From contig JAJEKV010000011.1 in NCBI GenBank assembly GCA_021234155.1, positions 8,665,132 through 8,729,131 of the forward strand: a stretch of 64,000 bases of DNA. Direction: 5' to 3'. The notes beneath the pieces are model-generated. The model ran no database searches, was not told where the DNA came from, and was given only the letters and a program-made list of their open reading frames with translations. Below, piece after piece: positions 4,853-63,316 of this stretch. The first letter of the stretch is position 1; each line of letters opens with the position of its first letter. This DNA comes from Isoetes taiwanensis. Lineage: Eukaryota; Streptophyta; Lycopodiopsida; Isoetales; Isoetaceae. The position numbers and the translations under genes were made by a program.

Positions 4853-5272
4853 TATGCAAAACTAAGTTATGCCAGATGTATGCACGCTCTAGATGATGGA
4901 ATGTCGTATGAAATGAATACTTCTCTGTCGACATATGCTCCCGTATGTTAAATTCATGGCTTCCATTGTGTCCAGATCATAGGATCGACAACACAATTAA
5001 GTGGCTCCTTTCCCTTGCCCTATGGTTGATCATGGTTCACCTCATCGTTATAAAGGCACTTGTTACGAGGATTCTTAAGACCTGTGATTTACAAAGACAG
5101 CACCAAACATAAGGCTTTGCGATCTGTGCTAATATTAAACTAATGGTGGTGGTCAAGATGCTCCCAATTCCAATCGCATTACAAGAATAAATAACGTTTC
5201 TCTTATCCCAAATCTGTTAGTTTAGAGCACCTCGTGAGAACATAATAATACCATATTATATTGCAGAAACAT
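4853..5272. repeat. Non-coding sequence split from the foldback repeat by the LINE
   Basis: No gene. The last 90 bases (about 5185-5272: TTCTCTTATCC, ATCTGTTAGTTTAGAGCACCTCG, AATACCATATTATATTGCAG) match 12290-12376 in direct orientation. This is the same repeat family that resumes at 11783, so the LINE inserted into one of these copies. Confidence 0.65.
5260..5272. repeat. LINE target-site duplication, 3' side
   Basis: ATTGCAGAAACAT, immediately before the oligo-T (poly(A) on the minus strand), is repeated at 11783-11795 on the other side of the LINE. One further T may belong to either the duplication or the tail. Confidence 0.85.
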
Positions 5273-5595: not shown

Positions 5596-8500
5596 TCAGG
5601 CCCTAGCTATATGAAAGGCCACTTTCTTCATGGTGCACCATTCAAGGGGAAGGATTCCCAACAATAGTTCCTTGGTACCTAATGGGTATTCAAAGCTATC
5701 CAAACTCCATGCCCATACTACTTGCAGCTTCTCACATTTCACCAGACAATGTTCTAAGGATTCCTGTTCGGCCTCGCACAAGGGGCATACTGGGCTGACG
5801 TTATTGTCCCATTTTGAGACTAGCTGATTAACCCTTGGAGCCCTGTGTATCACTTGCCAGAGGAAAGCATTTATCCGAGGGGGAAGATATTTCTGCCACG
5901 CATCTCTCCAGATGTTTTTGAGGTTTTCTCCGTGATTACTAATTCCATTTGGTTGGTATTGGAAGTAAACCCTTAGTCCTCAAACTTCTGTAACTTGATT
6001 TCACGAACTTGTTTGGCAAGATCGCAGGGTGCAAAACCCATGGATTTTGATCTCCTGTAGTTATAGTGTTTGGAAGTACTGTGGCCACACTTTCCCATAT
6101 TATTTTATCTGCGTCCTTTAAGGCAAAACGTACCTGAAATTCTGCCCAACTGGCTAATTGCTCTCCCTTGTACCATTGAGCACAAGAATCTATTCCACAA
6201 TTTTTCCACCTCTTAACAATCCTTGCATCAGCCACCATGCCTAAGGGGCCCTGTTTGTTGTGCAAAACCACTGGTACCCACCATGGAGGGGAAGTTTCTG
6301 CTTCGAATTTGTTGATGTCAAGCGTAAATAGTTTTTTTATGATTTTCCAAGCTGAAATTAATCCCTTCAGGAATGGAGAAGCTTCTCTACATGGCTTAAG
6401 ATCAAAAAAGAGTGACCATGGGAGTGAGACTTTAACGGAGGGCTTACTATGCTTACATGACGCTAATAGAGCCTGGTTGATGAGGTGCATGCCTGGAGAC
6501 TTCACCTCTTTCTGTAGGATCTTCCATATGAATTTGGCTATTAGAACTTTGCTCTGTAATGATATGTCAACCATTCCAATTCCTCCTTCTGTCTTATCTC
6601 TCTTGCACTTCCACCAAGCGATTTTGACCACTGCCCCTTCTTCATTCCCTCCCCAGACGAAGTTGCGGATTAGCCCTTCTAATTCTTGTGCCTTCTCCTT
6701 CGGGGCTAGTAAAATTGATGATGTGTAGACATGAGTATTGCTTAACACATGTTTTGCCACTGTAATCCGACCTGCAAGTGATAGCTTTGCCACCTTCCAC
6801 CAATTTAGGTGTTTCTGAAGGCCTAGTAGTATTTCGTCCCATATTTGTGCCTTAGCGATATTGATGCCCACTGGAACACCTAATAGGTTGGAATGCTCGC
6901 CCTCTGGAATTATTTTCCATGGTAGGATTGTCAAGCATGTGGGATGTGGTTCTTCCAGAGGCCATTGTACTGCGCATTTCTTCCAATTTATGAGACATCC
7001 TGAAGCTATTGAGAAGGAGGCTAGTAATTTGTCTGCACATGACAGATTCTCTTCCTCTGCCTCTATAAATAGAAATGCGTCGTCTGCATATTGGTTACAT
7101 ATTTGTTGAGAGCCATCCAACATTTCTAGTCCCTGAATCATACCGTCTTCCGAGGCTTGCCCGAATATTTGTGAAAGTGCTTCTGCTGCAATATTGAAAA
7201 GGAATGGGGCTAAGGGGCAACCTTGCCTGATGCCCCTTTTTATGTCAAATATTGGAGAGGGTTCACCTTGGAATAGGACTGAAGCTCGAGCAGATCGCAG
7301 AAGCTTCATGACCCCTTCTGAAAAAAAAATTCCACAACCCAGCTTGAGCATCATTTTGTGCAGGAAACTCCATCTGATACTGTCATAAGCTTTGGTAAAG
7401 TCTAGCTTTAGATAGGCCACCTTTTGTCTTGTTTTTCTAGCCCAGTGCAAACCTTCGAATGCTGCTGCGACATTGCTCAGGATACTCCTGCCTGGTAGAA
7501 AACCCGATTGGGCTTGTGAGATGCCTTCAGCCAGAATTGGCTTGATCTTCTCTGCCATAGCCTTAGCTATGATTTTATAGAATGCAGATAAAAGTGTGAT
7601 GGGCCTCCAATCATTGATTGTGCTTGGCTCCTTACTCTTGGAAACCAAGGAAATACAACCCGTGTTCAATCTTGGATTTAGATTTTCAGCTTGCATAAAG
7701 TCTGTGTATGTAGAGAAGACATCATCCTTAACCCATTCCCAATTGCATTGATAGAATTCTATGGGAATTCCATCCATACCCGGACATTTATTTGGAGCCA
7801 GTAAACGAGTAGCCTTTTGAAGGTCCTCAATAGAGAGGGGAAGACTTAAAGTATCTTGCTGGCTAGAGTTCATTATAGGCGAGACTTTTGAAACCACCAG
7901 CGCTTCGAAAGTCTCTTGAAATGGTAAGTTATGTTCTCCAAAGAAAGCATTGAAATGGTTATATAGATACCTTTTGAGATCTCCTGGAGATTTGAGAATT
8001 GTGCCGTCATTTTGAGTGATGGATGATAGTGTGGATGATCTCTTCTTTTCTTTAGCTGTCCTGAAGAAGAACTTTGTGCATTTGTCAGCTTCTTTTAGCC
8101 AGGTCAATCCAGCTTTACATCTATTTTCAGCTATCTTGACCTCTTCTAATGTCTTGATCTGTTCTATTATCCTTTTCTCCTCTATCCCATCATTGGGGCC
8201 CAATGCTCTAAGTGAGAGAAGTTGGCCATAAAGGGAATCCAGTTCTTCCCTTTCTTTTTGCACTTTAGCCCTACCCCAGCTTTTAGCATAATTTTTAATA
8301 TTTGAAAGAGCTGTTATCATGGTTTCCATACCAGTTCCTGTTCTAAAAGCCGATTGCCATATGCTTTTGCAGGTCTCCACAAAATCTGGGTCTTTCAAAT
8401 ATCTGGTATTTAATTTGAATACTGTTTTAGAAGTTCTAAACTGACACTTCTTAGTCGATATCACTTGTGGATTATGATCGGAGATAGCATTCTTTAATTG

Positions 8501-9172
8501 ATTGGACCTTTGAAGGTTTGGAAGGATGGAGAAAGCCACGTCATTCATGTAGCATCTATCGTGCCTTGCGTACGTCCTCCCTGCTCCCAGCCATCCATTA
8601 CACCATGTATATCCCTTATCTCCCTCCAGCTCCATAAAACCCATATCCTCTACCAATTTACACCACTGAAGCTTCTCAAACCCATGTACAATTTCTGACG
8701 ACACCCCTTGTCTATCCTCGGCCGCCTCCACCATGTTGAAATCCCCTGTCATTAGCCAAGCTACCTGTCTTCCAAATCCTTTTAATCTATGTCTAAGAGT
8801 GGCCCATAAAGCACCTCTGCCCCTGGAGTTGTTGTGGGCGTAAATATTCACCAGACTCCATATTCTACCTTCTTGATGCCATAGAATTATAGCCCACCTA
8901 CCAAACCTGTCAACCTGTGACTCACAAACTTTTACTTCCTTCTTCCAGGCGATCAAAGTGCCCGCACTAGAGGTATCTTTTACTGCAGCAACGCCCACAT
9001 ATTCTTTACCTATTGTGTTGAACAAACCGTGTATCTCCCCCTGTTTACATTTATGCTCTTGCAGGCATATGATGTCTGGATTTATCTCCTTGATTGCATT
9101 TGATAATCTGCTTTTCTTGTATTCCGAGGATTTTACCCCCCTGATATTCCAGCTAAGGATTTTATAATTCAT
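5596..9172 (-). pseudogene. LINE ORF2: endonuclease, reverse transcriptase, zinc-binding end
   Basis: The main frame is 1077 codons (9172-5939). Residues 1-230 form an APE-type endonuclease (start YKILSWNIRGV, then LQEHKC, TGDFN and SDHNP). An RT domain follows at about 495-755, with LKLDFTKAYDSIRW (motif A), QGCPLAPFLFNI and the catalytic QYADDA near residue 693. The frame ends at a TAG at 5939. The reading continues in a neighbouring frame through GENLKNIWRDAW and a C-terminal zinc-binding domain (CPLCEAEQESLEHCLVKC) to 5596, so one frameshift near 5940 separates the last 115 residues. There are no other breaks. It nicks target DNA and reverse-transcribes its own RNA; whether this copy works depends on that single break. 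Confidence 0.9.
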
Positions 9173-9244
9173 GGGGAGATGTTTGGAGACCCTTTCTTCC
9201 TTTTCATGTTGCCCGTCCCTTCTGTGTCTATTGCTTCTGCCTTT

Positions 9245-25054: not shown

Positions 25055-25088
25055 GGTTAAAACAAAGTTTAAAATGAAACGCACTTAT
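25055..25088. repeat. Left terminal inverted repeat of element 1
   Basis: Begins GGTTAAAACAAAGTTTAAAA and differs from the right end at one position (25066). Just inside is the small hairpin GGAATCTTTGAAAGATTCC; a matching AAAGATTCC-type block sits inside the right end too. Confidence 0.8.
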
Positions 25089-25489
25089 TTGCTGGAAACG
25101 CACTTCAAAAGGAATCTTTGAAAGATTCCCTAAAATTCCCTTAAAAAAGTCCATTTTTAAGATTTTTTTGTGACAGGTGTGACAATTTAAGTAATTTAGG
25201 TACCATTTTTGAGGGGTTGATTGAACATAACTTTCATGCAAAAATTTTAAATAGCAATTTTCATCCTCCTAAACTAGAACAAAAAATAATTACTTTTATA
25301 AAGTGTAGCAAAAAAGGGGCAATAAAAAAATAGCAAGGGTAATAGAGTGACAAAGAAGTGATATATTCATGGTTGTGAAAATTGTACAAAATTATGAACA
25401 AAATTGTCAAAAATATAGGACATTTTGACAGACAATCATCACCTGCACTTTCTGTTTTTTACATGTTCGAGTCATCGGACAAACTTACA

Positions 25490-28235
25490 TTTTGCAGCAA
25501 GATCAGGATGCATCTCATCCTCCGACTCATTTAATCCCTGATCACTTGAGCCTTCATCCTCAGCTTCACTCTCAAACCGGATGTACTCGAAGCGATCTTC
25601 TTCCTCACTTGTCTACAAGTGAGTCCTCATCATCATCTTTTTGGCCACCTTTCTAGGTTGTTTGTCTAATCCACATGCCGACCTTATTAAAGTTTGAGTG
25701 ACCATACGTAACTTATTAGCAGCTAAATGTAACAAAGTCATATGCAAAACCTTCACTTCAGATAGATCTATGACAGCATTACTTGCTTTGGACTTTGCTC
25801 TCTTTCCCACTCTGTTTTTTACCATCTCCAAAGTATAACTCCCCCGAAAGCTTTGGCGGCATTTGTTCTCATCCGGTGCACTTTTAATTGAGTGGGAATT
25901 CCATCCTCTCTTGTTACCTCTAGTACTTTAGCTATCCGTAAGCGGCTTCCCGTGATTCATCATTATCGGTTTGGGACAGCTATGAGCATTCCTTTCTCAA
26001 ATCTCGAGACCGAACCCGGATACTCGAGCAACTTGTTTGTCTTTGTGGCGTCTAGGGGCGGTGTACATGACTCGTCATCTTCATCCGAGCTAGCCAATAT
26101 CTCTACATGTTCCTCTTGATTATCAACTTGCACGGGGAGAGTTTGCCTAGATGGCCAGTTGAATGTGGCGGTCTTCGACCTTGTAATGAAGCTTGCAAAA
26201 TATCCGTTGTCGAAAAAACCGAGGCCACCATAAAGCATCGCCTCCCCAAAGTGGTTAGAGCACGCACTGAATACTTGTCTCAATAAAATCCAATGATTTG
26301 CTTGAGTCAAATGCTCTTCCCTCCTTTTTACTCTTTGTGATTTCTTTCAAGCTTTTTAGAGGCATTTGCTCTGCAGAGAGCATGGAACTAGTATTGGGGA
26401 TGGTGCGAATGAATTGAATACCTGCTGCTGGCTGCCACTGCAAAGATGTGGCATATTTCTTTCCTTGTAAGATGGCCCTGCCATCTACAAGTGAAATTTT
26501 GATCTGATGCTGAAATGTAATGTTTCTCAAGGGCTCAATAGCACAGTGACCCAGTTGATCTCTTCGAAAAATCCATTCTTTGAAATCATAAGTTTCTTCC
26601 AACAACTCGATGTCTGGACGAGGATTGTAGGAATCTTGGATAACCTCAATCATTGCTGGTAGGCTGAGAGCTTTTTTTCGAGCAAGACGTTTAGAGAACC
26701 TACTGAACATCTGATCAATTTGGTCGTGTGTATGACCAACAAGCAGGAAACCAATCTTCACCTTCTTGAAGATTTGTTTCTCTACTAGCATAGCACAGTA
26801 AGCAAACAACGCCTGATTCTTATTTTCCCTTGTCGTGTTGTCTAGCTGAAGATACAGAACCGGTGGTATATGTTCTAGATTGGAAAGAAGCTTATTCAAT
26901 ATTGTGATAGTGAGATTTGGATCAGCATGAATGTTTGGATAATTCAAAAATGCCTTGCAAGATAGTTTTCCATTAAATACCATAGCACCAACAACATGCA
27001 GATGTATGAAATCTTCTTCAGCAGCATCCTTAGGCACATTGACAAAATGTGGTAGGGTGGTCTTCTTCTGGTCCATTCCATCAATAACAACTGATATATA
27101 GTTGAGTGGTTGTTCCAGTGCTTTCTTCCTATGTTTTGTCAATTTTCTCCTTTCCAAAGATTGTTGTTCTCTGTGCTTGTTTAGTTTCTCCTTCAATGCA
27201 TCTGAAATGAAAATATGTTTAGGAAAGAACCTACTTTTAAGTAGAACTAGGCAAGAACACGTCCTGGAAGCTTACTTTTAGTGTGAAGTGTCCTTGCATT
27301 TTGTCTCTGAGCTTTTAATTCAGAGCATGTAGCACAAACAGACATCCTATGCTTTCTAGGAATGGACACGCGAGAAAACTCTTTTTTCCAGAGCACAGTA
27401 AAGTAAGAGTAGCAGACAAAGCGTTCTCCAGCCTCAACACACATCTCCTTATAATTATCGTAGACTTCTTGTTTCGTGAAATTGTCACTCAAGTGGTACA
27501 TAGGGCTATTAGGGAGTTTCTCACAAGACTCCTTAAAGAAACCTTCCATCCAGGAAACACATTGAAGGGCATGAATTCTGGTTATGCCTCCTGAATGGCA
27601 GTAGTCATTAATGCCTGGATTCTTGTCAAGCCTTTTCTTCAGGCGGTCAAGTCGTCTGCTGCCTAAAGCATGAATCAATTTGAAGGCCGTTTGTGGGGCG
27701 GTGTGGCCACCAGCTGTGTAAGTAAACTTCTCACCATCATCTGGCCTAATATTGAAGGCTAAGTAGCCCCTTTGGTCTAGCAGAGTCATTGAACTGTAAC
27801 TATCACGAATCAACCTCAATTCCTTTAGTCCAATCTTAAGCAAACAACGTTGAGAACAACAGTGCTTTGTATGTGTTGCCCGCAAGTGAGCCTCGTCCAT
27901 GAGTTTCTTTCTTCTAACAGTTGTACATGCTTTCTTGTGTAAGTTACGCTTAAGATTCTTACTTGCGTGGGCTTTGAATTGAACATAGAGTCTTGCGGCT
28001 TTGGTAGGTCCTCCTCCCCCGAGATCAACATGAGGTGTTTCTTCGTCTGAGAGATCAACTTGAGGTGTACTTGTAGATGCTGATAGGTTTGGTGTGTGCA
28101 AGTCCTGGGGGGAGGTGCTTTCCCTCTCTCTGGGAAAAAGTAATCGAGGTTGGTGACGTAGTTGACCAGCTCCCGGTGTCGTGAGAACACGGGGGAGTTG
28201 CGTGTCACGACCGCTCCCACTTGTTGTAGTACCAT
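25490..28235 (-). pseudogene. Transposase-like gene of element 1 (DUF7869-like, from memory)
   Basis: Exon 1 runs from MVLQQVGAVV (28235) to LHTK at 27276. A 73-base intron with GTAAGC...TTTCAG follows, and exon 2 runs from 27202. The N-terminal half has Cys pairs (KHCCSQRC, SVCATC). The C-terminal half has three acidic blocks, VVIDGMDQKKT, LQLDNTTRENKN and VGHTHDQIDQMF, spaced like an RNase H-fold nuclease; that is my inference. A BAH-like tail (FEKGMLIAVPN, RIAKVLEVTREDG) and an acidic end (SEEEDRFEY) follow. Breaks: a frameshift at G6 (28107-28112), one near 26270, and more after 25960. The homologue at 35670-38382 keeps all three blocks. Probable mobilising enzyme of the element. Confidence 0.72.
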
Positions 28236-28979
28236 TTAGCTTAAATTGATGGAGTTGGCGTGATTTGCCTCCGGGGATTTAGCCTACGGTGGACTAAGGG
28301 CGACGTACTAAAATGAAGTGGAGGAGGTAGTCTGACCTCTCTAGCCTGAGGTGGGGTAAAACGCATTGGTGGGGGCAAACGACGTTCGGGAGGAGGGGGT
28401 GTGGTGGAGTAAATTGAATGGTGGTGGAAGCCGAGGTGGTCGTGGCCGGAGTAAACTCAACCGTAGCTGGGGGTTTGAATATCGAGGCGAAATTTCCAGG
28501 CTACCTTCGGGTGTCGGGTTGAGGGGTGTGAATGTCATTGCGGGGAGGAAGCCCGCGAACGTGAGTTGGAGGCTCTGCGGTTCTTTTTCTCGAGCCATAC
28601 TAAAGGTGAAGGCCACAATCAGATAAATTTATACCTACGTAAGAGCAGACGGTAAAAGTTTACACGTGGATGGTATAAATTTATACGCAGAGAAGGCAAA
28701 CTTAGCTGCAGACCAGATAAATTTATCTGAGAGATGGTATAAATTTATAATGAGGAGGAAGACACGGTATAAATTTATATCTAAAAACTCACGCACACTT
28801 GTATCGGAAACTTTATGGAGAAACGCTTATACCTAAACGGCACTTAGCAGGGGTACTTAAGCCCGCCCGGCCACCCTATTTTCCATATACGCGGCTTCGA
28901 GTCGCGGCTTTCGCGGTCCCATTTATATACCCCTTCTTATTTGCTCTCCGGAACGTCTATACGCTTAGTTCATACGGTC
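28236..28979. promoter_or_regulatory. Divergent promoter region between transposase and methyltransferase genes
   Basis: The two genes are transcribed away from each other from this 744-bp gap. A TATA-like TTATATAC lies at 28923-28930, about 50 bases before the plus-strand ATG at 28980. Five copies of the element's palindrome, or half-degenerate versions of it, occupy 28627-28785, close to the methyltransferase promoter. The part near the transposase (28366-28626) has an open frame with no recognised domain. Confidence 0.5.
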
Positions 28980-29375
28980 ATGGCTAACGTAAGTCTACTT
29001 TCCGCATCGTTTTAGTTTCTCTTTTGTTTTAATCGTTAGAGTGTAAGCCCCCCACGGTATAAATTTATACCGAGATGGCTTCGGATCGGTATAAATTCAT
29101 CGCCCGATGCTCGCGGTATAAATTTATACCGCTCCGCAGCACTTGGCGTATAAGTGCTGCGGGCGGTATAAATTTATACCGCCGAAAGCGTATGGGCTTA
29201 TGAATTTTATACGGCTGAAGACGCGGCGGTATAAATTTATCGCCTCAGAACACACCGGTCGGTATAAATTTATACCCATTGTTCTCGAGCCGTATAAATT
29301 TATACGCTTTCAGCCGACCGTACAGGCGGTATAAATTTATACCGCCGTCTTTCGAAGCCGCGATAAATTTATACC
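28627..29375. repeat. Palindrome array A of element 1 (GGTATAAATTTATACC)
   Basis: About 14 copies of the 16-base perfect palindrome or close variants, for example at 28671, 28768, 29057, 29115, 29165, 29261, 29292 and 29328, spaced irregularly by 20-60 bases. They cover the promoter and intron 1 of the methyltransferase gene. Variants usually keep TATAAATTTAT and vary at the ends. Confidence 0.92.
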
Positions 29376-32300
29376 GTTCCAGAACCATTTTAGATTCTTG
29401 ATGTCTAGTGCTCAACGAATGGTCCCGAACCTTAATATTTTGGTAATATTGTTGTGTTTTCAGCTTAAATGACACAAATGAAGTGTTAATTTAGTGTGGA
29501 TTTTATGCCCTTTCATCCTCTTTTTCTACTGTTTTTGTGTTTCAAAAATTCGAAAAAGGTTCAGTTTCTTGTATAAAAATGGTTTTTTTTGCGCGTTTTC
29601 CAGCCCTAAGATCAAGTTTGTACTCGGAGGGTCATCATCAAAGGCTGCACCACCAGAGCCACAGACTTATGAACTAAAGGATCAGACTTGGCACGCCCAA
29701 TGGGGCAAGAGAGAGCAAACCCACTGAGGCGTACCTTTACTTGTGCAAACAATCAGGGAAGGGCAAGTTCAAGTCTGATGATTATTACCCTGCTGGCGAA
29801 ATTATAAGCCTTGTTGCTACAGAGAACGATGATGAAGTTTTAATGCAGTGCAACCATGACAAGGGCCCCGTCTACTATGTTCTGAATACTAGAATGCTTA
29901 GAATAAGCATGTGCAAGCCTAAAAAGACGCGATTATTACATTGCGGACAATTACAAGAACGGCTTTGTAAGTTATTCTTAGTTGCTTTTCAGTATAAATT
30001 TATATCGTCATTCTCTTAACTTAACCCTCGCATTACGGGGACGTAGTAGAAATTTTGATGTCAGATAGTCCGCGGCGACGAAAAAAGTGTTGGTCAAGGG
30101 TCTATGGTACCCCCGTAATAACGAAGAGGAAGTAGTAGAGGAAGAGGAAGAGGAAGAGGAAGAACCAGTCAACACAAAGGGAAAGGGTAGGAAGCATTCC
30201 CTGGTAGTAGATACACAGCCTCCTACCAAGAAAAAGTCTAGAATCACAAAGTCCTTGACTATAGACGAGTCAGCAGAAGCTCTTCAGAAGGCTCCTGGAG
30301 CAGATATCGTTGTGAAGCCCGCAGATAAGTCGAGTGCTATTCTCAAGCGGGTTAATGAAACCAAACTGCTCAAGCAGACCATTTCTTTGACACTAAGCAC
30401 TATTAAGAGGCCACCAAAAAATGAAGATGGGGTCAGAGTGCTTCAGTCCGAAAAGTTATGCAGCGGCACATGTGGCTATCCTTAAGCAAAGAATGAGAAG
30501 GAATCCTCATGCCCATGTGTCGCCACTAGTTGTGATGGTGGACAGAAGTCAATGCAACCAATTAAAAGACTACAAAAAGGCAGATTTCGAAGATTACACC
30601 TATTATGTTCTTGGAGGCACACATAGTTATAAAGCAAGAAAAGAACTTTCAAAAGAAGAAAGCCGTAATGAAGTCTGGAAGAGCGTGGAAACACATATCT
30701 ATGTGGGGGTGACAGACGAAGAGGCAAAAGTCATTGCCGTGAGTCACAATCTCGACAATGACTTCAGACTAAAGATGAGCCTAATAGACAAGATTCGCTT
30801 CATGCACCGAGAGTACGTGGATTTCAAACAAGTGCATGGAGACGACTTCAAAAAACAAAAGAACAAGCTTCAAGAGCTTCGAGAAGCCTGTGTGACAGAG
30901 TGCTGCCTCAGTTATGATTCGGATAAGAAACCCATTATGGCTGTCAAACAATACGATAACTACTTTCAGCTCGCTTTCAGAGATGGTCAAGTAAGTAAAA
31001 GCTTCAATTCAATCTTTTGTAGTATGTTTAGCGTGGTTAGAAGCTTGTAATAGCCTAGTGACGGTATAAATTTATACCGTGCCTGGCCGCGGTATAAATT
31101 TATACCGTGCCTGGTCGCGGTATAAATTTATACCGGACGCGGTATAAATTTATACCGTGCCTGGCCGCGGTATAAATTTATACCGTGTTGAGTCGCCGTG
31201 CCCATCCTTTTACGCCATTCAACACTAAACTTCGTTTGACCATTTACAGGTGTGGGATCTTCAAGAGAGAATTTTTTGTATGTTCGAAGATGGGGAGCTC
31301 AAAGAACAAGCTAGGGACGCAGGAAAGAAACCAAAGAAAGGTGGTGAATCAAAACAAAAAAATATGAGCATTGTACCCTGGACGCAGTTACAGGGTCTTA
31401 AAAGCAAAGAAATATTTGTTCGCCTGTTGGAAAAAGTAGTTGCCAAAAAATTCACATTAGACGAGATGGCCAAGGAAGCTAAAACGTAAGCCTCACTTGC
31501 TATGCCATGTTTTTTTTCTACCTTTTTTTGTCTTACAATATTTTTCCCTTTGCAGTCAGAAAGACATTGTCACTTGCCAGGCCGAGTTAATGAAGCAGCT
31601 CAACCTAGAAGACTGGGAGGAGTGCAAACTTTTGTACCCAAGTTGCACCACAGACAGTATCATCAGAGAGCACGCAGTTAACTTCAGTGGCTGGGTAAGT
31701 TTTGCAAAAAATATGTTATGTGTTTGTGCCTTTGTCTCACATTACTCTTACAGAACAAGAAGAAGGGGCTACCAACTGGATTTTTAAACCTGGTTCGTAG
31801 GGCCAAGGAAGAGAGGCAAAGGCTTAAGGCAATTGAACAGGGTAGAGAGGTCGCCACTTCCAGTTTTGACTGTACATATGAGAGATTTACCACATTTGGT
31901 CAGGACGTCCAGTACAGGGTTGTTGAGGGTGATTGTACAAGGCTGGGGACTCTTTTAGACAAGCAAAATTTTACATTATGCATTGCAGATATTCCTTATG
32001 GATTTAAAATAAAGGATAGCGCTTTTGATGAGGAGGCTTTCACTCACGTGCAAGTCCGGTCTTTCCTGGATGGCCTAAAAGAAGTCACGACATCTGAAAA
32101 CTGGAGGGTCATCATTTTTCATTCCGACCTTCAGACGATGTCGGTGCTTAAACCTATGGGAGCGGTCTGTAACGCCGGCTTCGAAAACTGCGTTTGGTAA
32201 GCTTCACAATTAACGCTTTTTGTTTTACGGTAACTCCACGGTATAAATTTATACCACATCTGTCTTAAGGTTTAAATTTTAAAGGCTGGAACAACCGTGG

Positions 32301-33160
32301 TATAAATTTATACAGCAAGGCAATGTCTGTATAAATTTATACGGCTTGCCGCCGTGGTATAAATTTATACAGCAAGGCAACCGTGGTATAAGTTTATACC
32401 GCCACACTACCGGGCTAACTTATTTTCCTTGTTTTCTTTTTACTAATTTCTAATTGCTGTATTGCTTGGCAGGCTTAAAACAAACGTCAAGGGTCATGGT
32501 GGTGGTCCGCGCTTAGTGAGCTGTTTCGAGCATTTTCATATAGGTTTTTACAGCGCGGACACCAAAAAAACCATGATTCATTTTAACACGCAGAATGAGA
32601 AGACTCCTCCCTGCAATGCATTTCAGTTCCCAGCTGTTCTGCAGAAATTAAGAGACCCACAGCGACAAGGCGCTGTGGTGTCCCATTATCAGAAGCCACA
32701 GCGTCTTATTAATAATTTGATACAGTGGTTTTCTCGCCCTGGAGACTGGATCTTGGATGCCTTTTCTGGATCAGGCACCACAGCAGTTTGCGCCCTTAAG
32801 CAGGGCCGCAATGTCGTCTCAGTCGACATAGACCCAGATAAAGTAAGTTTCATCAGGACCAGGATAAGCTCTTGTGAATCCTTTCCTGATGAAAACGAGG
32901 AGCTGGGAGCGAAGAACGGTGCCAGCGATGCTAAGGGCACTTACACAGAAATACAGCCTCCACTTACAGGAAGAAGAGATGAAGAGGTGGAGTTTGTCGA
33001 CTTGGAGCCTGTGGTGCCCGAGCCAGAGAAATCGCCTAGGCCAGTAGGTCTGGAATCAGAAGGAGGCGTCTCTGCTGTTATAAGCTCGCAAGAGCCAGAT
33101 CCTAAGGGGAACGAGAGTCCTGTGGACTGGGAAGAGCCACCTCTCCCACCTCTGGTATAA
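28980..33160 (+). CDS. ParB-like / beta-class DNA methyltransferase fusion, multi-exon
   Basis: Exons I can place: 28980-28988 (ATG GCT AAC then GTAAGT), 29604-29966, 30069-30990, 31250-31485, 31556-31694, 31754-32196 and 32473-33160. From 30069 on, junctions are GT-AG and in phase. The order is: a novel N-terminus (YLYLCKQSGKGKF), a Glu run and basic KKKSR, a ParB-like domain (VSPLVVMVDRSQ, YYVLGGTHSYKAR, DEEAKVIAVSHN), a possible helix-turn-helix (KFTLDEMAKEAKTQKDI), and a methyltransferase with CIADIPYGF (motif IV) and WILDAFSGSGTTAV (motif I), then VSVDIDPDK. The tail is acidic and Pro-rich. The N-terminal frame has one-base shifts at CCC 29604, GGGG 29702, AAAAA 29921 and near 30416-30432; the methyltransferase exons are unbroken. 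Predicted N4-cytosine or N6-adenine DNA methylation; motif IV has DIPY rather than DPPY. Confidence 0.8.
31062..31185. repeat. Palindrome array B of element 1, intron of the methyltransferase gene
   Basis: Five copies of GGTATAAATTTATACC, mostly 28 bases apart, separated by GTGCCTGG(C/T)CGC spacers. The array sits entirely inside the 31.0-31.25 kb intron. Confidence 0.95.
32239..32402. repeat. Palindrome array C of element 1, last intron
   Basis: Five copies, two of them with a changed half (GTATAAATTTATACAG, GGTATAAGTTTATACC), in the intron between 32196 and 32473. A further copy at 33154-33169 contains the stop codon of the gene: the reading frame ends GGT ATA A read as GTA TAA. Another, at about 29992, lies in the intron after 29966. 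Confidence 0.93.
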
Positions 33161-33611
33161 ATTTATACAGACAGAGTTCTTAACCACTTTCATTGTAAAC
33201 TATGTGCTAAGTAATATTATAATTTATTTTGATGAAGATTTTTAAACTGAAAGCTTTGTCTCTCTAACAATGCTTAATTGAAACAACTCTTTCTTGCTCC
33301 AGGATTTCACACTCTTTGTCTTTCCAATGTTTGACTTTTTTAGTACTTCTATTAAGCTTGCAAAAAAACAATCTATATTTCCTTCTGTTTTTAACAATAA
33401 ATACTTACTGAGTTATCAAAATTAATGTCTCTCTCCTCAAAACAAGCATTTTTTTTTGCCCTCTTTTAAAAATGAAAAGGCTTTAAAAATGTTGCTTTTT
33501 TGGGGGTATCCCGAATGCTAATTGCTCAACAATCTATTTTGCTCCCTATTTTGTGTGTTTTTTTTTAAGTTTTCAATTTTTATAAAGGAATCTTTCAAAC
33601 GCACTTCTTAC
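33161..33611. other. AT-rich right interior of element 1
   Basis: No gene. It holds the 3' untranslated region of the methyltransferase gene and AT-rich DNA leading to the right terminal repeat. Confidence 0.5.
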
Positions 33612-33646
33612 ATAAGTGCGTTTCATTTTAAACCTTGTTTTAACCA
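33612..33646. repeat. Right terminal inverted repeat of element 1
   Basis: Reverse complement of 25055-25088 with one mismatch, plus one extra A before the AAAGC flank. It is preceded by CGCACTTCTTACATAAGTGCG, itself a short palindrome. Confidence 0.8.
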
Positions 33647-35669: not shown

Positions 35670-38382
35670 CCTTGTCCATCTCCTTTCTTGGGATCTTGTG
35701 TGTGTTGTCTTTTGCAATGTGAGAACTTGGATATGACCATACCACACACTCCACCAATTCCCTCCTTTGAGGGTCAGCATAATTTGCCCTCCACTTCTTC
35801 TCCCAGCCAGGTGTATTGCTCCTTCAAGTTGCCCTTCTTGTGTCTCCCAATGGGCTCCCAATATTGAATTTGGAATCCAGGATGCAACTCCTCTCCATCA
35901 GGCATAGTGGTGGTCACATCAGAGAGTGCCACCCCTAACCATATTGGATGACAGTCCTCATCATCAGGGCCTTACTAGCACAAAGTATCCTTCCTTGATG
36001 TCCTCAAAGGATCCCACTCGGGAAGATCAAACCACTCGGCTTTGAGGCCTTACTTCCCACAAACCACTTGGAACCCTTTGTTGGGACCCAAGTGAGCATT
36101 CTTAGACGTGCTTGCACCTTGAGAACCCTCCCATCTTGACTCGGGCAAGAACCCGCCTCTTAGCTCCCTCCCACATGGTCGCTCGGTTTCTAAGCATGTC
36201 ACAACTTTCTCCCAAGACTTGATTAGGGAGTCCATTTGATTTTTCTTAAGAGTGGAGGTGTGCTTTCCATTTCAACATCATCCCGGTCGTTATGTAATCC
36301 TTGATGCCCTTCACCGGTTGGCTAGAGTCTTTTGACTGTCTTGAAGGGAGGTAGTGGTTTTGGCTGCCCTTTAGGAATGAGAACTTCACCGCCCAGCACC
36401 CCTTTGCCACAACTCGATACCTTGTGCAGGGCATCCACAACTTGTCACCTGGTCTCCACTTATATTGCATGATTGGTATTCCATCCCTAACCCAAAACTT
36501 GAACTGAAGTGGCTTTGTGTGTCCCTGTCAACCTGGTCCTTGCCATCTAGCAAGTATCCTTCTACAAATGATTTCCAATGCAACCTCATCCATCAAGAAA
36601 GCCATTGGGTTGGGGTCAATGCAGCTCTCAAACACATCCATTAGTTCGGGGAGAGTGGTCACGTTTTCTCTCTTGAGCTTGGTGGAGAAAGTTCCAAAGA
36701 ATCCATCTATATCATCATGCGTATGCCCAACCATCATGAATCCCACTTTCACAACTTTGAATACTCCCACCGGCCGCCAAGTATGACATTGCCCCAAACA
36801 TCCATCTATTCTTGTTTTCTTTCCAACGGTTGTCCAAATCAACACATAGCTCCTCGTGGTGATTTCTCAAGTAAGGGGAAATCATCCCAAGTCCTCCTTG
36901 ATTCACTAGACACCTTGGATGTGAGCTTTTTATATCGCCTTTGGTAACAAAGCGGTTGATCATCCATCAAAGCCTCAAAATGGGTGCTGAAGGGGAATAC
37001 CTCCTCCCTTCTATCGATCCTTTCTCTAGTGTTCTCGGGCACTTGAAAATAGAGCTCACATGGAAGTTTGGATCATCTCTCCATAGATCAAGCACAAAAT
37101 GACCATATGTTCCAGTTCCATGACCATGTGTTAATACACCCGGCCGGACTTCCTTTTCATCCCAAAAGCGTTTTGACAACGCTTGGGTAAAGGATCTAGC
37201 TTGGGCAAGAAAGTCTTGTGTTGGTCCATCTTATCATGAATTATACACAAAAATTTGTCCTTTGCATCTCGAGAAAATGTTCTCCACCGCCAATACAACC
37301 GCCTGTCTACATGATATTTGGTCCCTTTGGTGATCCGCAAATTGCTCCCTAATTGCCATTCTTTCTTTCTCTATTGCAGTTGATGCAAGTGTATCCTTGA
37401 GTTGAATGCAAGTGTTGCACTTTGAGAATGGCATGTGTTGTAGGACACTCACGTCCGAGAAGTGAGTGCTCCATAACTTGCTGAAATGTGATTGAGAAAG
37501 AGGCCTACCTCCAGTAGTTTCTAGGATGGAGTTGACCTCCTTGAGGCACTCCTTTTGGATATAGTGTTGTGGCAACACTATTTGCACCACTTGCACACCG
37601 TGCTCGTTCACCTTCGACTTGTGGGGCATAGATTGAGACATGTATCTCACAAAGCTCTCGAAGACTGCAATGGCCTTTAGAGTATTTGCTCTAGGTTTCA
37701 AAGTGAGTGCATTACCATGTTGGAACAAAGTGTGCCCTTTTCTAACCTGCTCCCAGTATCTGTAAAATGAAGACTTGCTCACCCCAAGAATCCATCTCAA
37801 TGCTCTCATACATACCTTCATGCCCCTCAATTGATATAGTAGCCGTCCTGTGTTTTCATCATAGCTGGAATTCCTACACAAGGAGTAAATGAAATTAATC
37901 CTATCTTTTTGAAGCTGTCCAATGTATTGGGACCTTATCTGCACGAGGTCATCCATATTGTAGTGCACTGTGCAATCTAGGTTGCAACACTCTTGTCCCC
38001 TAATTGCCTCCAGGTTTTCTTTGGTTGGTGCCATACTTTCCATCCTTTCTAAATATTTGTCACTTCTAGGCCTCTTGGGCACCTTTGGCTGCCTTTTATG
38101 AAAGACATAAGCGTCTCTCTTCCTTGTGATCAAAGGATGCTCATCGACCACCAAATCTTCCACATGGCCTTGGGTGGGCCTTGGGGTGTGTAGTTCAAGA
38201 GGGCATTGTAGAGTATCACCATTCTTGTGTGTAATATATCTAATTGGCCATCTCAATCGAGCTTGGGACTCCAAAGCAGCCCCTGAGCACACAATGCAAT
38301 CACTAGAGCTTCCACGGGACATGATTGTATCAACTTCGATAAGAAGCTTCACAATGCCAACTCCAAGATGTTCATCTCCCAA
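35670..38382 (-). pseudogene. Transposase-like gene of element 2, frameshifted
   Basis: A diverged homologue of the gene at 25490-28235. The long N-terminal frame (38382-37234, 382 codons) has QECCNLDC and the FSKLWSTHFSDVS ... CNTC block, matching KHCCSQRC and FTVLWKKEFSRVS ... CATC in element 1. The three acidic blocks appear in successive frames: IIHDKMDQHKT (about 37230), CVDLDNRWKENKN (about 36830) and VGHTHDDIDGFF (about 36700). A C-terminal HPIWLGVALSDVTTTMPDGE segment lies near 35900. At least four frame changes show it is dead. The shared residues across two distant copies support their importance. Confidence 0.75.
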
Positions 38383-38574
38383 AGCCTCTCATCATTCACA
38401 CTATCAAATGGATCAACTGCAGGTTATTATGCCCCTCTGCCAAATACCGCCCAGTTTGCAAGGGTGCAACAAAAGGCAACCCATCTTCCTCCATTGGAGC
38501 CTAGGGCAATGGCCTCCTTTGGACTTCCCTGGCTCCATTTTACTCATCTCACATGCTCCCTGAATGAAAAAGCT

Positions 38575-39854: not shown

Positions 39855-41075
39855 CCTTCTTCTCGACTTCGCGAGTGAGAGAACTTCTCGACTCGCGAGG
39901 CGAGAAGGGAGTGTACACTACGGGCTGTTGGCGGTTGAGGGATTCTCGACTTCAGCGATTCCGAGATTACCACAGCTACCCAATGTCTTCACATTCTTTA
40001 GAACCTGGCTGCAGCCTTCTCGACTTCGTGAGTGAGAATGTGATACCTGCCAATGGCCCTTTGTGCGTCGCGGGTGCCTCCACCGATCACCGAGCCACTC
40101 TCCTTGAACCATGCTCGCCGAATATTGCGAAGAGGGGCTCCAGCGGGTGGAGGCCTCGGCGACTAACCAGCTGAGTGCTGGCGGCTTTTCGACTTCGTGA
40201 GTCGAGAAAAACGCAGGCTCTAGTGCACTCTAGAGCTGGCCTGAGGCGATCTTAACCACTCTCCTTCTATCTTCCTCGGACATTGCGAAGGGAAGTGGTT
40301 TTCCTTTGTCTGCAGGCCAACTCTAGCAACCCAATTCTCACGTATTGTGGTCGCGGTGGCCTCTACCCAATCAAAGACCGTCTCCTTCAACCATCTTCGT
40401 CGAATATTGCGAAGGGGATGGGCTCGATTGGGTGGAGGCCTCGGCGACTAACCTGAAGGTGCTGGCAGCTTTTCGACTTCGTGAGTGAGAAAATAAGCCA
40501 ACTCTAATACCTCTAGAGCTGACTGCGGGGCGGTCTTAACAACTCTCCTTCTATCTTCCTCGGACATTGCGAAGGGAAGTTGTTTTGGCCAACTCTTGTC
40601 AACCGGGCCAACTAAATAACAACCCGCAGGGGAAACCACGAGCTTCTTTGTATGCATTTCGGCTCGTGAGTGAGGAATGCCTTGCCTAACCGGCACTCCA
40701 TGTGTACCATCCGAGGAGTTTCGATGGCTAAGGCATTTCGACTTGCGGAATTAGAAATCTGTATTTTTCCAAAATACGTGATTTTTGGAAACCAAAAGTC
40801 GCATTCTCGACTTCGCAAAGTCGAGAATCCTCTAACCGACCAATTCTCTGTGTGGTGCCGGCGGTGGCCTCTACCCGGTCGAGCCACTCTGCGCGCGGAA
40901 ACCATAGAACTTGCTGTCTGCATTCTGCGCCTCGCCCAGTCGGGAATACCTTAACCAACCGGCACTCGTGTGTACTAACGGAGTTCGGATGGCCAAGGCA
41001 TTCTCGACTTGCGAAGTCGAAATGTTGACAGCGACCAACGATCGCATTCTCGACTTCGCAAGTCGAGAATCCCTT
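39855..41075. repeat. Palindrome array A of element 2 (CTCGACTCGCGAGTCGAG)
   Basis: About a dozen full or half copies in intron 1 (near 39860, 39885, 40016, 40187, 40470, 40735, 40804, 40998, 41046). Most are variants such as TTCTCGACTTCGCAAGTCGA with a few changes in the centre. Confidence 0.9.
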
Positions 41076-43509: not shown

Positions 43510-44240
43510 TTCCATTCTCGACTCGCGAGTCGAGAAAGCCCTACCATCCTGGGTGAAAGCATGCTACGGTGTACCACTTTTGGAACCCTCAAAAGTACCT
43601 TCACTGGGTACTTTTAAAACTGGTACTTTCTGTTCTTTCTTCCTATTAAAATCAATTCAAAACTTTTGAATTGAAGGTCAATAACTTGTCAATTTATAGT
43701 ATTTAAGGATAACAATATTATTAGAGACAAAAATTAATGAATCAACTCTCAAACTTATTGTTTATTGAGACATTTATGCAAGTTCCCAGTACCCAGTGTT
43801 GGGTACTTTTTTGGGTAGTTTCGCACTCCCTAAAAAGAACTTTAGATGATACACCCTAGCATGCTTTCACCCTCCTAACATTTGCCGATTATCACTGGGG
43901 TTTCTCGACTCGCGAGTCGAGAAAGCCAGGATAACACAGAAAATCAAAGGATGCAGAGCTTTCTCGACTCGCGAGTCGAGAAAACCCAGAGAAGTAAAAG
44001 AAAATTAGACATTCAAGGGACTTTCTCGACTCGCGAGTCGAGAAAGCCCTGCCATCCTAACATTTGCCGATTATCACGGGGTTTTCGACTTCCTTGAGGC
44101 GAAAGCGCGGTAAATACGTAAAAATCAAAGGATGCAGAGCTTTCGACTTCGCGAAAGTCGAGAAAACCAAGATAAGTAAAAAAGAAAATTAGGCGTTCAA
44201 GGGACTTTCGACTTCAAGTCGAGAAAACCCCGGCTACTAT
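43510..44240. repeat. Palindrome array B of element 2
   Basis: Six or seven copies, including perfect CTCGACTCGCGAGTCGAG at about 43514, 43904, 43963 and 44024, inside an intron. Each is embedded in longer similar units (GGATGCAGAGCTTTC, CCTAACATTTGCCGATTATC repeated). Confidence 0.92.
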
Positions 44241-58410: not shown

Positions 58411-59545
58411 ATGAATGCTCGATATAGACGGTGCACGTAACGCCGCCTGGCAAACACCCTCCAACGCCAGTAGGCTGACACCTGAACAGGAATTGATGTT
58501 AATGAAAAGGCAGCTCGGCGAATTACAGGCCTATGTATTGCATGCCAACCCACGGCAACAAACCCAGGAGGACGGACCGGAATTACCTCCGCGACCATTG
58601 AGTCCACCTGCACAACAGCCATCTCCCCCTGGAGCCAGTCCTGTACCTGTATCGAGGATGCCTCATGCTAAGCATCATCGAAGTTTCTCTAAGGATAGCG
58701 CCACTTCCTCACGCTCAACCACTTTGGTGTCTTCTGGGTCATCGTTATCAGTCAGTGACCATGCGAAGCGCCGGGATAAGGAATACCGTAAGACCGTTGA
58801 TACAGCTATAACTAGTATATGGAAAAATAGGAAATTGGCCCAGTTTGATGGGAAATCCAGAGGCGGCCTAAATGCGGAATCCTGGTTGGACGAGATGAAG
58901 GAGTTTGGGAAGTCCTATGGAATGACGGAGAAGGATACAGGAAAGGTTGCCACCACCAACCTTACCGGAGCTGCCCGTATTTGGTGGAAGGGTTATGCGA
59001 GAGCCAAGCACCTGGTCAGGAGCAGGTGCAAGTTCAAAAAGTTCGCCAAGGCTTTTAAATCGCATTATGTGCCTCGTGCGCACAAATGCCAACAGATCCA
59101 GACCTTCTACAGATTAGAGCAGAAGGGCATGTCAGTTCAGGCCTACACTGATGAATTCATGCGCCTGAGGTTGTATGTACCAGGGATGAATGAGAAGAGG
59201 GCGGTAGAGGGCTACATTGAAGGGTTGGCCCCATCCATTAAACGAATGGTCAAGGCCATGGACCCAAAATCAGTAGCAGAAGCGGAGGCTAAGGCATTAA
59301 GCCTCGAAGAGGACACACCAAGGAACCAGTATCCGCGACCTGCTCCTTACTCGCAGCCACGGCCGTCCACACCGTATAAACCCCGCTCACCCAGTCCGGG
59401 GCCCTCTCAGCAGAACTCCTACGGTCGCCAGGAAAAGAAAGTCACCTTCAACATGCCCGACAAACCCAGTAATGTTGGCAAGGAAGTTCGGAATCTCTTA
59501 CAGTCTATTCCCAAAGAGGCCCGAGATCAGTTACGAAGGATAAGG
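58411..59545 (+). CDS. gag: gag polyprotein (capsid part)
   Basis: The start is ATG 58415 or, in another frame, 58411; the long frame from 58415 is used. A Pro/Ser-rich N-terminus precedes a Ty3-type capsid (retrotrans_gag) region at about residues 140-270: [56 protein letters not shown] Pro-rich spacer follows. The CCHC zinc knuckle ([14 protein letters not shown], about 59551-59592) is in the -1 frame relative to the capsid. The switch happens at 59500-59545, either by a programmed shift or a mutation. Confidence 0.88.
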
Positions 59546-62500
59546 CATGTTACAGGTGTATGCGACCCGGGCATTATATGCAGAATTGCCCTTACGTCAC
59601 GCAGACTGCCCAGTTGGCCATGGCTGACCTCGATTGGGACGATCTGGAGTCCACTCTACCTGTCGAGGACGAGGCTCCCGAATACATTCACGGTGCATCT
59701 CATATTCTTGCCGCCATTGAAACTGGCAACGCTGAAAGTCAGCCTTCTGTTATTTCTACCGTAGGCCAAGTAGACAGTAAGCCTTTCATAATTTTGATGG
59801 ATACGGGTAGTACGCATAATTTTGCTTCTCCTAGAATGGCCCAGGTATTGCAGCTTGAAACGCTGAGATCCCGACCTAAGCCAGTCACGTTAGCCAGTGG
59901 TAAGATCAGGCACACTCATGGCCGCCGCATTAACCTTGAGATGCAGTTGCCAGGTGCACCAGTTGCCTTGGGTGCCGAGTTAATGGACATTGGCAAATAT
60001 GATCTTATTGTTGGTATGGAGTTTTTGGCATCTGCGAAGGCCAATATAGACTGCGAGAAGCGGGAGGTTACCTTCAACGCCGCTAATAGAGCACGCGTAA
60101 CGATAAAAGGTGATCCATTCCACCCTGTTATGCAGTCTATGTCAATCAGGCAGTTAGGAAAAGCTATACGCCGGAATAAGCTCCTTTGCCTCATTACACT
60201 TGCCTCCATTGAGTCTGACACTAAGAAGAAGCAGGTAATCGATACCTTGCCACAAGACATTGCCAATCTTCTTCGAGAATTTAGCGATCTTTTTCCAGAT
60301 GAGATCCACAAGCTTCCTCCTTTCAGAGGGGTAGAATGTGAGATAGCTCTAGAATCAGGTACTAAGCCTACCAGCAAGGCCCCGTACCGAATGAGTCCTC
60401 CAGAGTTGGCAGAGCTTAAGAAACAACTTCAGGAGTTGCTGAACCTAGGTTTTATTCGACTTAGTGTTTCACCTTTTGGCGTCCCTATTCTTTTTGTCAA
60501 GAAAAAAGATGGCTCCTTGAGGATGTGTATTGATTATAGGCAGCTCAATAAGCATACCATCAATAATCGCTATGCTTTGCCTAGGGCAGATGATCTCATG
60601 GACCAGTTACAAGGGGCCAAATATTTCTCAAAGATTGATTTACGCTCCGGATACCATCAAATAAGGATAAAGGAGGAGGACATTCATAAGTCTGCATTTC
60701 GTACCAGATATGGGCATTATGAGTTCACCGTTATGCCTTTTGGGTTAACCAATGCCCCTGCAACATTTATGCGATTGATGAATGACATCTTCCGCCAATA
60801 CTTAGATGACTTTGTTGTTATTTTCTTTGACGACATTCTCATCTATAGTAAAACCTTGCAGCAGCATGAGCAACATCTTCGATTAGCCTTACAGAAGCTA
60901 AGGCGTCATCAGCTCTTCGCCAAGTTCTCTAAATGCAAGTTTGCCACTCCCAAGGTGGATTATTTGGGGCATATCATTTCCGCAGAGGGAATTGCTACCG
61001 ATCCAGCAAAGATAGAGGCAGTAAGGGATTGGCCTATTCCAGGTAATGTTTCAGAAGTTCGAAGTTTCTTGGGACTCGCGGGATATTATCGCAAATTTGT
61101 TAAGGATTTTGCAATAATTGCCGCACCTCTTACCGATCTCACAAAGCATGAGAGAGTGAAGGATTGGATGGAACATTGGAAAGCAAAAGTCCAGGTAGGC
61201 TTTCAGAAGCTCAAGGATGCTTTAACATTTGCACCGGTCCTCACTTTGCCCGATCCTGAAAAGGATAAACTAGTGGCCACGGATGCTAGTAAGATAGCTA
61301 CCGGTGGAGTGCTAATGCAGGAGGGGAGAGTTATTGCCTACGATTCAAAGAAGATGAATGACGCGGAACAGCGATACCCTACCCATGATCAGGAGTTGCT
61401 GGCAGTTGTCCGCGCTCTCCGTATTTGGAGACACTACCTTCTCGGTAGAAGATTTCAGCTAGATACAGATCATCAGAGTCTCCGCTATCTATCCACCCAG
61501 CCAAATCTCAATCTCCGTCAGAGGAGAAGGATGGAATTCCTGGAGGAATACGACTTCGAGATTATGTATAAGCCAGGGAAGCACAATGTGGTTGCGGATG
61601 CATTGTCACGCCATCCTTTGATAACCCGAACCCATTGTAACGCCATTTCCACACTCACCAGTGAGTTTGGGAAACAAATAGAACAGACCCTGGCCACAGA
61701 TCCCGAATTTTGTGATGTTTGGGGGAGTTTGGGTAAAGAAGCACGTACAGATAAAGAACGTGAAGCTTTCCGTTCATATAAGAAAGAGGGCAACTTGTTA
61801 TATCACAAGGATAAGTTGTGTGTTCCTGAGACTTCCGGGGTGCGCAAGCTAATTCTCCATGACACACACAACAGCCCTATAGCTGGACATGTGGGTTTTA
61901 TGAAGACTTTAAGATCCGCTCCAGCTATTTTTGGCCTTCGATGAAGAAGGATATTGCTAGATACATCAAGCAGTGTCAGGTGTGTCAACAAACCAAGGCT
62001 GAGCAATTAAGAGTTCCAGGAGAGTTGCAACCTTTGGATGTGCGCCCAACGCCAAGTGGGAAGTGATAACCATGGACTTCATTGTGGGCCTTCCACGTAC
62101 TCTCCGTGGATATGATGCATTAATGGTAGTGGTCGACAAATTGTCAAAGATGGCTCATTTCTTGCCATGTCGGACCACGGACACCGCCTTCGACACCGCC
62201 TTGCTATTTGCAAAAGAGATTTTCAGGTTGCACGGGATGCCAAGAGTGATTGTATCTGACAGAGATCCTAAATTTGTAAGTGCATTCTGGAAAGACTTCT
62301 TCGCCACCATCTAGACCAAGCTCGCTATGAGTACAGCTTACCATCCTCAGACAGATGGACAGACACAACGTACCAATCGCATTATCGAAGACATGCTACG
62401 AAGCTATGTATGGAGTAAACAATCACAATGGGCTGACTATATTTATTTGGTAGAGTTTGCCTATAACACTATGAAACAGGAGTCTTCCAGGATGTCTCCC

Positions 62501-63316
62501 TTCATGATAAATTATGGCTACCAATGTCTTACTCCAGACACATGGCATAACCCTGTTTCTAAAGTGGAGGTTTCTCAACAACTCCTTTTAGAAATGCAGG
62601 CCTTGGTTGAAGAAGTTCGTGGTTACTTATTAGCGGCACGCAGTCGTCAGAAAAGTCTAGCGGATAAACACAGAACCCCACGAGTCTTCCAGGTGGGCGA
62701 ATCGGTTTGGCTTAAGATCAAAGTAAAACAAGCCAAGCTTAAAATTGGTAACTGCAAGAAGTTGGCACCCAGATGGGCTGTGCCGTTCAAGATTACTGAA
62801 CGTGTGGGAGAACAGGCATACCGCTTGGACTTGCCGCCCCGCTTGAGGATCCACAAGGTCTTTCACGTGAGTCTTCTGAAACAACACACCCCTGATCCAG
62901 AGGAGGTTTTGGATACCCCAACCCTCCTAGAAATTACTGAGGAGCACCTGGAGATAGTGCCTGCTGAAGCTCTTCTTGATCGAGCTTACAAACAGACCAG
63001 AAGGACTCAAATGTTACAATACTTGGTTAAGTGGAAGCACTTACCAGTTGAGGATGCTACCTGGGTGATGAAGATAGACCTTGAAAAGCACTATCCGGAC
63101 TTCATGCGGGAATTTCAGGGCCGCACCATCAACGATGCTATCAACCCCGCTCCCGGCGGTAAGCTTGAAGGCTTGATTTGCCGAGAATCATGCTCTAGAG
63201 GGGTAGATGCATCGTATCTTATAATAATAACCGATGATGAGATCACCTTTGTGTTCTCTAAGACGTGGTGTATTGTTGATGTTGACATGACCGCGCATTG
63301 CTTGGAAAGCATCTAG
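59546..63316 (+). pseudogene. pol: pol polyprotein: protease, RT, RNase H, integrase, chromodomain
   Basis: In order: a CCHC knuckle, aspartic protease ([13 protein letters not shown]), RT ([34 protein letters not shown]), RNase H ([34 protein letters not shown]), H2C2 zinc (C..C in CQVCQQTK), integrase (MDFIVGLP, VSDRDPKF, AYHPQTDGQTQ) and a C-terminal chromodomain (MLQYLVKWKHLPVEDATWV at 63010-63068). Breaks: a frameshift near 61930, another near 62055, and a TAG stop at 62312-62314. At the expected third catalytic position of integrase (35 residues after the SD aspartate) there is Gln, not Glu. The polymerase half (to 61944) is open. Confidence 0.93.

Follow-up and report, generated by a model that had tools for sequence, protein, structure and literature searches.

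An abundant DNA transposon of Isoetes with a ParB-like/methyltransferase gene and family-specific palindromes: a candidate self-recognition module

We analyzed a 64,000-nucleotide stretch of the genome of the lycophyte Isoetes taiwanensis (contig JAJEKV010000011.1; hereafter the window, in whose numbering the coordinates of the element are given). Our analysis showed that a region flagged in this stretch by an initial annotation is a single abundant DNA transposon with terminal inverted repeats (TIRs). This 8.6-kb element codes for two divergent genes, a presumed transposase containing DUF7869 and a protein that joins a ParB-like region to a DNA methyltransferase, and its noncoding DNA holds arrays of a 16-bp palindrome whose centre differs between related families of the element. 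We consider it on balance probable that these parts constitute a cut-and-paste transposon with a self-recognition module, probably a self-methylating one, which would act against silencing in the manner of the VANC proteins of the VANDAL transposons.

The extent of the element was read against copies of it in the same genome (1,658,258,908 bases in 1110 contigs). Both ends could be read in six copies, namely the window copy, L035, L037, L038, L039 and the short derivative L001 (L036, which is without its right end, was excluded from the comparison). All six have the termini AACAAAGTTT...AAACCTTGTT, and each is flanked by a 4-bp target-site duplication—TTAA in the window, and TTTT, GGAT, CCTT, TACT and ATTT in the others. 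Because these copies end at identical bases, 6 bp inside the ends first drawn, the boundaries are placed at 25061-33639, with TIRs of 28 bp that are identical at 27 positions. Thus, the transposon with inverted repeats described in the initial annotation stands, but the repeat length of 34 bp (33 identical) and the 5-bp duplication AAAGC given there do not: the window copy inserted into a palindromic target, GGTTAACC, which accounts for both the apparent duplication and the six extra repeat bases. The annotation had also allowed that other copies might end elsewhere or lack the methyltransferase gene; those read share the ends given here and carry the gene. L001 (at C2:481792) is a 2.2-kb derivative that retains both ends, a 4-bp duplication and six palindrome cores; at the nucleotide level, at which it was compared, it matches neither gene.

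Genome searches point to a large population of such elements. The last exon of the methyltransferase gene (exon 7) yielded 3422 first-look candidates, of which 150 were scored, giving 150 matches at 61-100% identity; the DUF7869 gene yielded 10325 candidates, 119 scored and 122 matches; and an exon of a related family (class C, below) yielded 4186 candidates, 102 scored and 105 matches at 55-100% identity. As these are the best-scored subsets, the matches number at least 150, 122 and 105, respectively, and the candidate numbers are not copy numbers.

The element holds 25 sites within 3 mismatches of the palindrome GGTATAAATTTATACC, 11 of them exact, and all 20 occurrences of the 12-bp core TATAAATTTATA in the window lie within it, in agreement with the roughly 25 element-confined copies first noticed. 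The sites are distributed over the spacer between the two genes (4), introns 1 (9), 2 (1), 3 (5) and 6 (5) of the methyltransferase gene, and its stop codon (1), so that 20 of the 25 are intronic. A count over the whole genome gave 7218 for the exact GGTATAAATTTATACC and 0 for its reversed control, with an expectation of 0.4-0.9. The possibility, raised at the outset, that palindromes occur without relation to the element is borne out only as far as they are indeed found genome-wide; the two clusters that were placed, among those listed, are both tied to it, L001 by sequence and C16:317646-321016 by a transposase match 1.8 kb away. The class A sites, those of the window type, are regularly spaced: 84 of 144 spacings under 100 bp measure 28-32 bp, with 6 at 21 and 6 at 42, in counts to which copies of shared descent contribute. 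The corresponding figures are 41-42 bp for class C (10 of 22 spacings under 200 bp, among the places listed) and about 112-116 bp for class B. Intervals of this kind would be compatible with a whole number of helical turns and with proteins bound next to each other on one side of the DNA, and tandem duplication would account for them equally well.

Related families have palindromes of their own at corresponding places in the element. The arms GTAT and ATAC are constant, and the inner hexamer is AAATTT in class A and GAATTC or TCCGGA in the other classes; these three are the only centres of perfect GTATNNNNNNATAC palindromes in the window and the loci scanned for this form. The class B palindrome is GTATGAATTCATAC and that of class C is GTGTATTCCGGAATACAC, each represented by two fully read elements. 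Among the 150 places matching exon 7, 36 were read (the 40 class A loci correspond to 35 places, 5 of them read twice): the class A core TATAAATTTATA is present in all 35 at 64-100% identity, which are free of B and C cores, and the remaining one, L053 at 61% identity, has four class B cores and no A core. A second class B element, L052, was found through a 74%-identical transposase and has five B cores; compared with class A, the methyltransferases of these two elements, L052 and L053, show identities of 49-74% in pieces and 26-29% at the N-terminus. L051, whose methyltransferase is 30-50% identical in pieces, and its 94%-identical relative L050 have C cores only. Genome-wide, the class C palindrome occurs 2585 times (control 0) and the class B palindrome 64 times (reversed control 11, expected 7-12), the latter largely in clusters with a repeated layout. 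Introns from four class C relatives (60-73% identity) were also inspected, and two of them, at 61% and 64% identity to the class C query, have an exact C core.

The second gene, divergent from the transposase gene as first described, has seven exons defined by copy alignment and splice sites. In L038 it is open over 941 codons without a stop, with GT-AG splice sites apart from the exon 2 donor; comparison with sister copies showed that the gene is broken in the window copy, where exons 2 and 3 are frameshifted and one splice acceptor is altered. The predicted protein begins with a BAH-like N-terminus, followed by an acidic stretch and a ParB-like region; a linking region then leads to a beta-class methyltransferase. 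The C-terminal DNA methyltransferase is recognized by PF01555 (E 1.5e-15), and the best match of its profile in the PDB, by sequence comparison, is CcrM (E 9e-12). The ParB-like family phrog_1033 of PHROG matches three of five aligned sequences at E up to 1 (best 5e-6). Thus, ParB-like and N6/N4 methyltransferase domains do occur in one protein, the former by weaker matches, as the initial annotation had proposed. In ParABS partition, ParB is a CTPase with a helix-turn-helix that acts on parS, together with ParA; with its weak ParB-like matches, the Isoetes protein is not assigned to that system. The likeness of the N-terminus to BAH domains is an impression, and this part has no Pfam match. 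In beta-class DNA methyltransferases, the catalytic motif IV precedes the S-adenosylmethionine (SAM) motif I, and motif IV usually has the form (D/N/S)PPY, for example DPPY or SPPY. Here motif IV (exon 6) lies ahead of motif I (exon 7) in an N6_N4_Mtase domain, in keeping with the beta class.

Both genes are under purifying selection. In exon 7 of 34 class A copies (the window, L006-L034, L054, L055, L057 and L058; L056 and duplicates excluded), the pooled ratio of nonsynonymous to synonymous differences (pN/pS) is 0.19 over 561 pairs, and the median ratio of the corresponding substitution rates (dN/dS) is 0.16 over the 419 pairs with dS of 0.05-0.6. In the transposase exon of 10 copies, the pooled pN/pS is 0.13 (45 pairs) and the median dN/dS 0.11 (41 pairs). 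The loci were picked as the best protein matches, a bias toward conserved copies that may leave dN/dS somewhat low; even so read, the values speak for function over repeated transposition. The transposase-like gene of the initial annotation is the minus-strand DUF7869 (PF25273) gene, which we presume to be the transposase; its homologue in L050 is open over 987 codons. The name DUF7869 appeared in none of the open-licence papers searched. Two further observations concern these genes. First, the class C element of L050 is interrupted from about position 5220 of that locus by coding sequence resembling a Gypsy-type gag, as read from its open reading frames. Second, a different DUF7869 gene adjoins the window element (36246-38388, minus strand), with the motif VGHTHDDID and PF25273 at E 2.8e-18 on one piece.

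We infer from this arrangement that the ParB-like/methyltransferase protein is the reader of the palindromes: it would bind, probably as a symmetric complex, to the arrays of its family-specific site that lie in noncoding DNA of the element itself. The methyltransferase would then probably methylate these sites. A palindrome offers an identical site on both strands, as expected for a modification that is maintained through replication. N6-adenine is the likelier product than N4-cytosine, given the likeness to CcrM, the leading D of the DIPY motif and the adenines in the constant arms. Such methylation would mark the promoter region and the introns both in cis and in trans, including array-bearing copies that lack the genes. 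The likely benefit would be a shared promoter region that is kept active against host silencing, or regulated. We favour anti-silencing because it is the shared promoter and the methyltransferase introns in which the sites are concentrated, and because the gene-less copy keeps its array; autoregulation is the main alternative purpose. As families diverge, protein and palindrome would change together, the arms staying and the inner hexamer switching. A more specific version, which we put forward tentatively and regard as rather doubtful, is that the adenines of the 14-bp GTAT-NNNNNN-ATAC are methylated, that the hexamer serves as a family code, that the mark shields all copies of a family, gene-less ones included, and that new families arise by a joint switch of hexamer and enzyme. 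The initial annotation had spoken of a prokaryote-derived module domesticated by a plant transposon. A prokaryote-type gene and palindromes tied to a mobile element are indeed present, but "domesticated" is not supported for a gene that travels with the transposon and has relatives in ferns and, according to the literature, in algae.

Several observations weigh against this reading of the element. On the protein side, the ParB assignment is based on weak profiles: the profile did not match the one phage ParB-like protein with which it was compared by hhalign, the ParB part has no significant match in the PDB (best E 0.07 for an unrelated enzyme, 1.1 for sulfiredoxin), and structure prediction was of low quality, with a mean predicted local distance difference test score of 46 for the ParB-like exon and 36 for the fern protein P0005. 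Motif IV reads DIPY in the aligned class A, B and C proteins, and APYGF or ALYGF stands at this position in the fern proteins. This departs from the canonical motif, and therefore the target base and even the predicted activity are not assured. Even in the open copy L038, the exon 2 donor is AT instead of GT. On the side of the palindromes, the class B count is only about six times its control. Two of the four class C-type introns are without an exact core (L059 has a one-mismatch site and L060 a degenerate one). The class B element L052 also holds one A site, and two isolated B sites occur near class A genes, at distances of 166 and 431 bp from methyltransferase exons with identities of 80% and 82%. 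The A-type copies concerned are at C925:1930566 and C1060:7001871. Because of the A site in L052 and these two stray B sites, palindrome class follows protein divergence broadly but not perfectly. Finally, transposase and methyltransferase diverge together, so that co-divergence does not tell which of the two reads the palindrome.

This last point is the strength of the best-surviving rival, in itself unlikely, in which the palindromes are transposase-binding sites used in transposition and the methyltransferase is a separate accessory. The DUF7869 protein, too, diverges with palindrome class: of four 74%-identical transposases, the two that are free of stops lie within 5 kb of B palindromes (one at the cluster C919:6228290), the other two, which have stops, have none of the listed B places (50 of 64) in their vicinity, and the transposases of the class C carriers L050 and L051 are 61-62% identical. 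The gene-less L001, moreover, retains the ends and an array. Against this stand the positions of the sites: there is no palindrome-like site in the 3.5 kb of the transposase side or in the 477 bp past the methyltransferase stop codon, the arrays lie in the methyltransferase introns, and copy alignment shows that the element ends carry a repeated motif of their own, AAACGCACTT.

The arrays might instead be functionless tandem repeats that expand themselves by slippage or gene conversion, which we consider improbable. Regular spacing and variable array lengths do suggest tandem duplication, and a comparable turnover is discussed for VANC targets (PMC5735166). However, cores are nearly identical where linkers differ, with core versus linker identities of 0.97/0.66 in intron 1, 0.94/0.78 in intron 3 and 0.98/0.94 in intron 6, a comparison biased by the definition of cores through the motif. 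Further, L054 and L055, whose synonymous sites are saturated, retain exact cores in several introns. Least likely of all are promoter or transcription-factor sites without a role in methylation, such as a two-way TATA box: TATAAAT can indeed be read on either strand of the class A core, and the spacer of the divergent genes holds four sites, but 20 of 25 are intronic and families within one host genome have different palindromes. The TATA-box form of this idea was rejected, classes B and C not being TATA-like.

Table 1. Coordinates of the transposon and its parts in the window.
Feature	Position	Strand	Basis
Left target-site duplication, TTAA	25057..25060		Ends common to six copies
Left TIR, AACAAAGTTTAAAATGAAACGCACTTAT	25061..25088	+	27/28 to right TIR; identical start in L035-L039, L001
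Presumed transposase gene, open pieces	25613..28628	-	PF25273, E 6e-54; start codon near 28595 by our own reading
Spacer between divergent genes, 4 palindrome-like sites (28620, 28672, 28736, 28766)	28596..28979		
Exon 1	28980..28987	+	Copy alignment, splice sites
Intron 1 array, 9 sites, 5 exact GGTATAAATTTATACC	29056..29375		
Exon 2, BAH-like N-terminal region, frameshifted in window copy	29604..29966	+	Copy alignment
Intron 2 palindrome-like site, 2 mismatches	29991..30006		
Exon 3 (start approximate), acidic region and ParB-like domain; acceptor changed, frameshifted here	30050..30990	+	PHROG matches
Intron 3 array, 5 exact sites	31063..31184		
Exon 4	31250..31485	+	Copy alignment
Exon 5	31556..31694	+	Copy alignment
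Exon 6, methyltransferase motif ADIPYGF	31754..32196	+	Alignment
Intron 6 array, 5 sites, 1 exact	32240..32400		
Exon 7, SAM motif DAFSGSGTT, TAA stop	32473..33162	+	PF01555; CcrM-like; dN/dS
Palindrome copy enclosing methyltransferase stop codon	33154..33169		
Right TIR	33612..33639	-	Copy ends
Right target-site duplication, TTAA	33640..33643		Copy ends

Elsewhere in the window, another long palindrome, TTTCTCGACTCGCGAGTCGAGAAA, is found at 43515-44046 and at 39886, 45990 and 46979, with four exact 20-mer cores, three of them about 60 bp apart, and four with up to 5 mismatches. L058 shares an 18-bp stretch of this palindrome, and the repeats are possibly the sites of another family. Long reverse-transcriptase open frames at 5939-9244 (minus strand) and 59473-63316 (plus strand) are LINE-like and Gypsy-like by eye. 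No Rfam family was found in the window at gathering scores.

Neither the type of gene nor the idea of self-modification is new, as algal cases, including a divergent Sola1 gene, have been reported (PMC12477816). The class-specific palindromes and the occurrence in land plants appear to be new; no paper on such elements in ferns or lycophytes was found in the open-licence literature. In the literature covered, transposon-borne ParB-methyltransferases elsewhere have no known target, and here the probable targets are visible as thousands of repeats. Because a single genome holds families with different candidate targets, these are directly open to tests of binding, specificity and modification. 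Plants have lost the AMT1 adenine-methylation pathway (PMC12695648), and an enzyme supplied by a transposon would for that reason be notable.

Protein searches gave relatives from ferns. A single-sequence protein search gave no match at E 0.001 among the best 7992 candidates scored. Alignment searches of about 5.8 billion proteins (7997 and 7993 candidates scored) gave 4 and 8 matches, nine distinct and all from Adiantum. These hypothetical proteins (P0001-P0009) likewise have a ParB-like followed by a methyltransferase region, with P0005 covering the full query length at 34%; unlike the Isoetes gene they are unannotated and partly degenerate, and the comparison is one of protein alone. Matches to phage methyltransferases (250 records) are weak, the lowest E among those listed being 2e-8, with the joined class B protein as query. 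The matching methyltransferase of Klebsiella phage VLCpiS13f has a ParB-like gene immediately upstream, although the ParB-like protein of this phage gave no match to that of the plant element. CcrM-type beta-class enzymes share the order of catalytic motif before SAM motif, and CcrM, as noted, is the best PDB match; the bacterial and phage enzymes differ in having neither introns nor a BAH-like part. Bacterial methyltransferases act on short dispersed sites.

In overall layout, the element recalls the Sola superfamily, of which a 4-bp target-site duplication is typical. Such a duplication has been described for Sola2 (PMC3627910). The brown algal Sola1-1_Ec32 of Ectocarpus, reported in 2025, is likewise a DNA transposon with a ParB-like/N4C/N6A methyltransferase gene opposite to, and divergent from, the transposase, at 21.5 kb and with a protein of 1104 aa as compared to 8.6 kb and 941 aa in Isoetes; the authors suggest that proteins of this kind bind, and modify, the transposon that carries them, and cite cases from green and red algae (Iyer 2011; Petroll 2025) (PMC12477816). 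In the main text of that paper, term searches for "palindrom" and "binding site" returned nothing. We regard the Isoetes element as Sola-like only, in duplication length and layout.

The closest functional precedent is the VANDAL/VANC system. VANDAL transposons are Mutator-like and VANC is not a ParB/methyltransferase protein; the Pfam matches listed for the Isoetes element are DUF7869 and the DNA methylase, with no Mutator family, and we compare it with VANDALs in mode of action and not as a member. In VANDALs, too, an element-encoded factor is paired with short motifs that are repeated in noncoding parts and differ between related families, VANC proteins and motif arrays evolve together, and VANC causes loss of host methylation (PMC5735166, in the text of which a search for "palindrom" found no occurrence; VANDAL/VANC anti-silencing is also the subject of PMC10398659). 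If our reading is right, a VANC-like arms race would have evolved separately with a DNA-modifying enzyme, and the Isoetes families would possibly represent a natural set of paired readers and sites.

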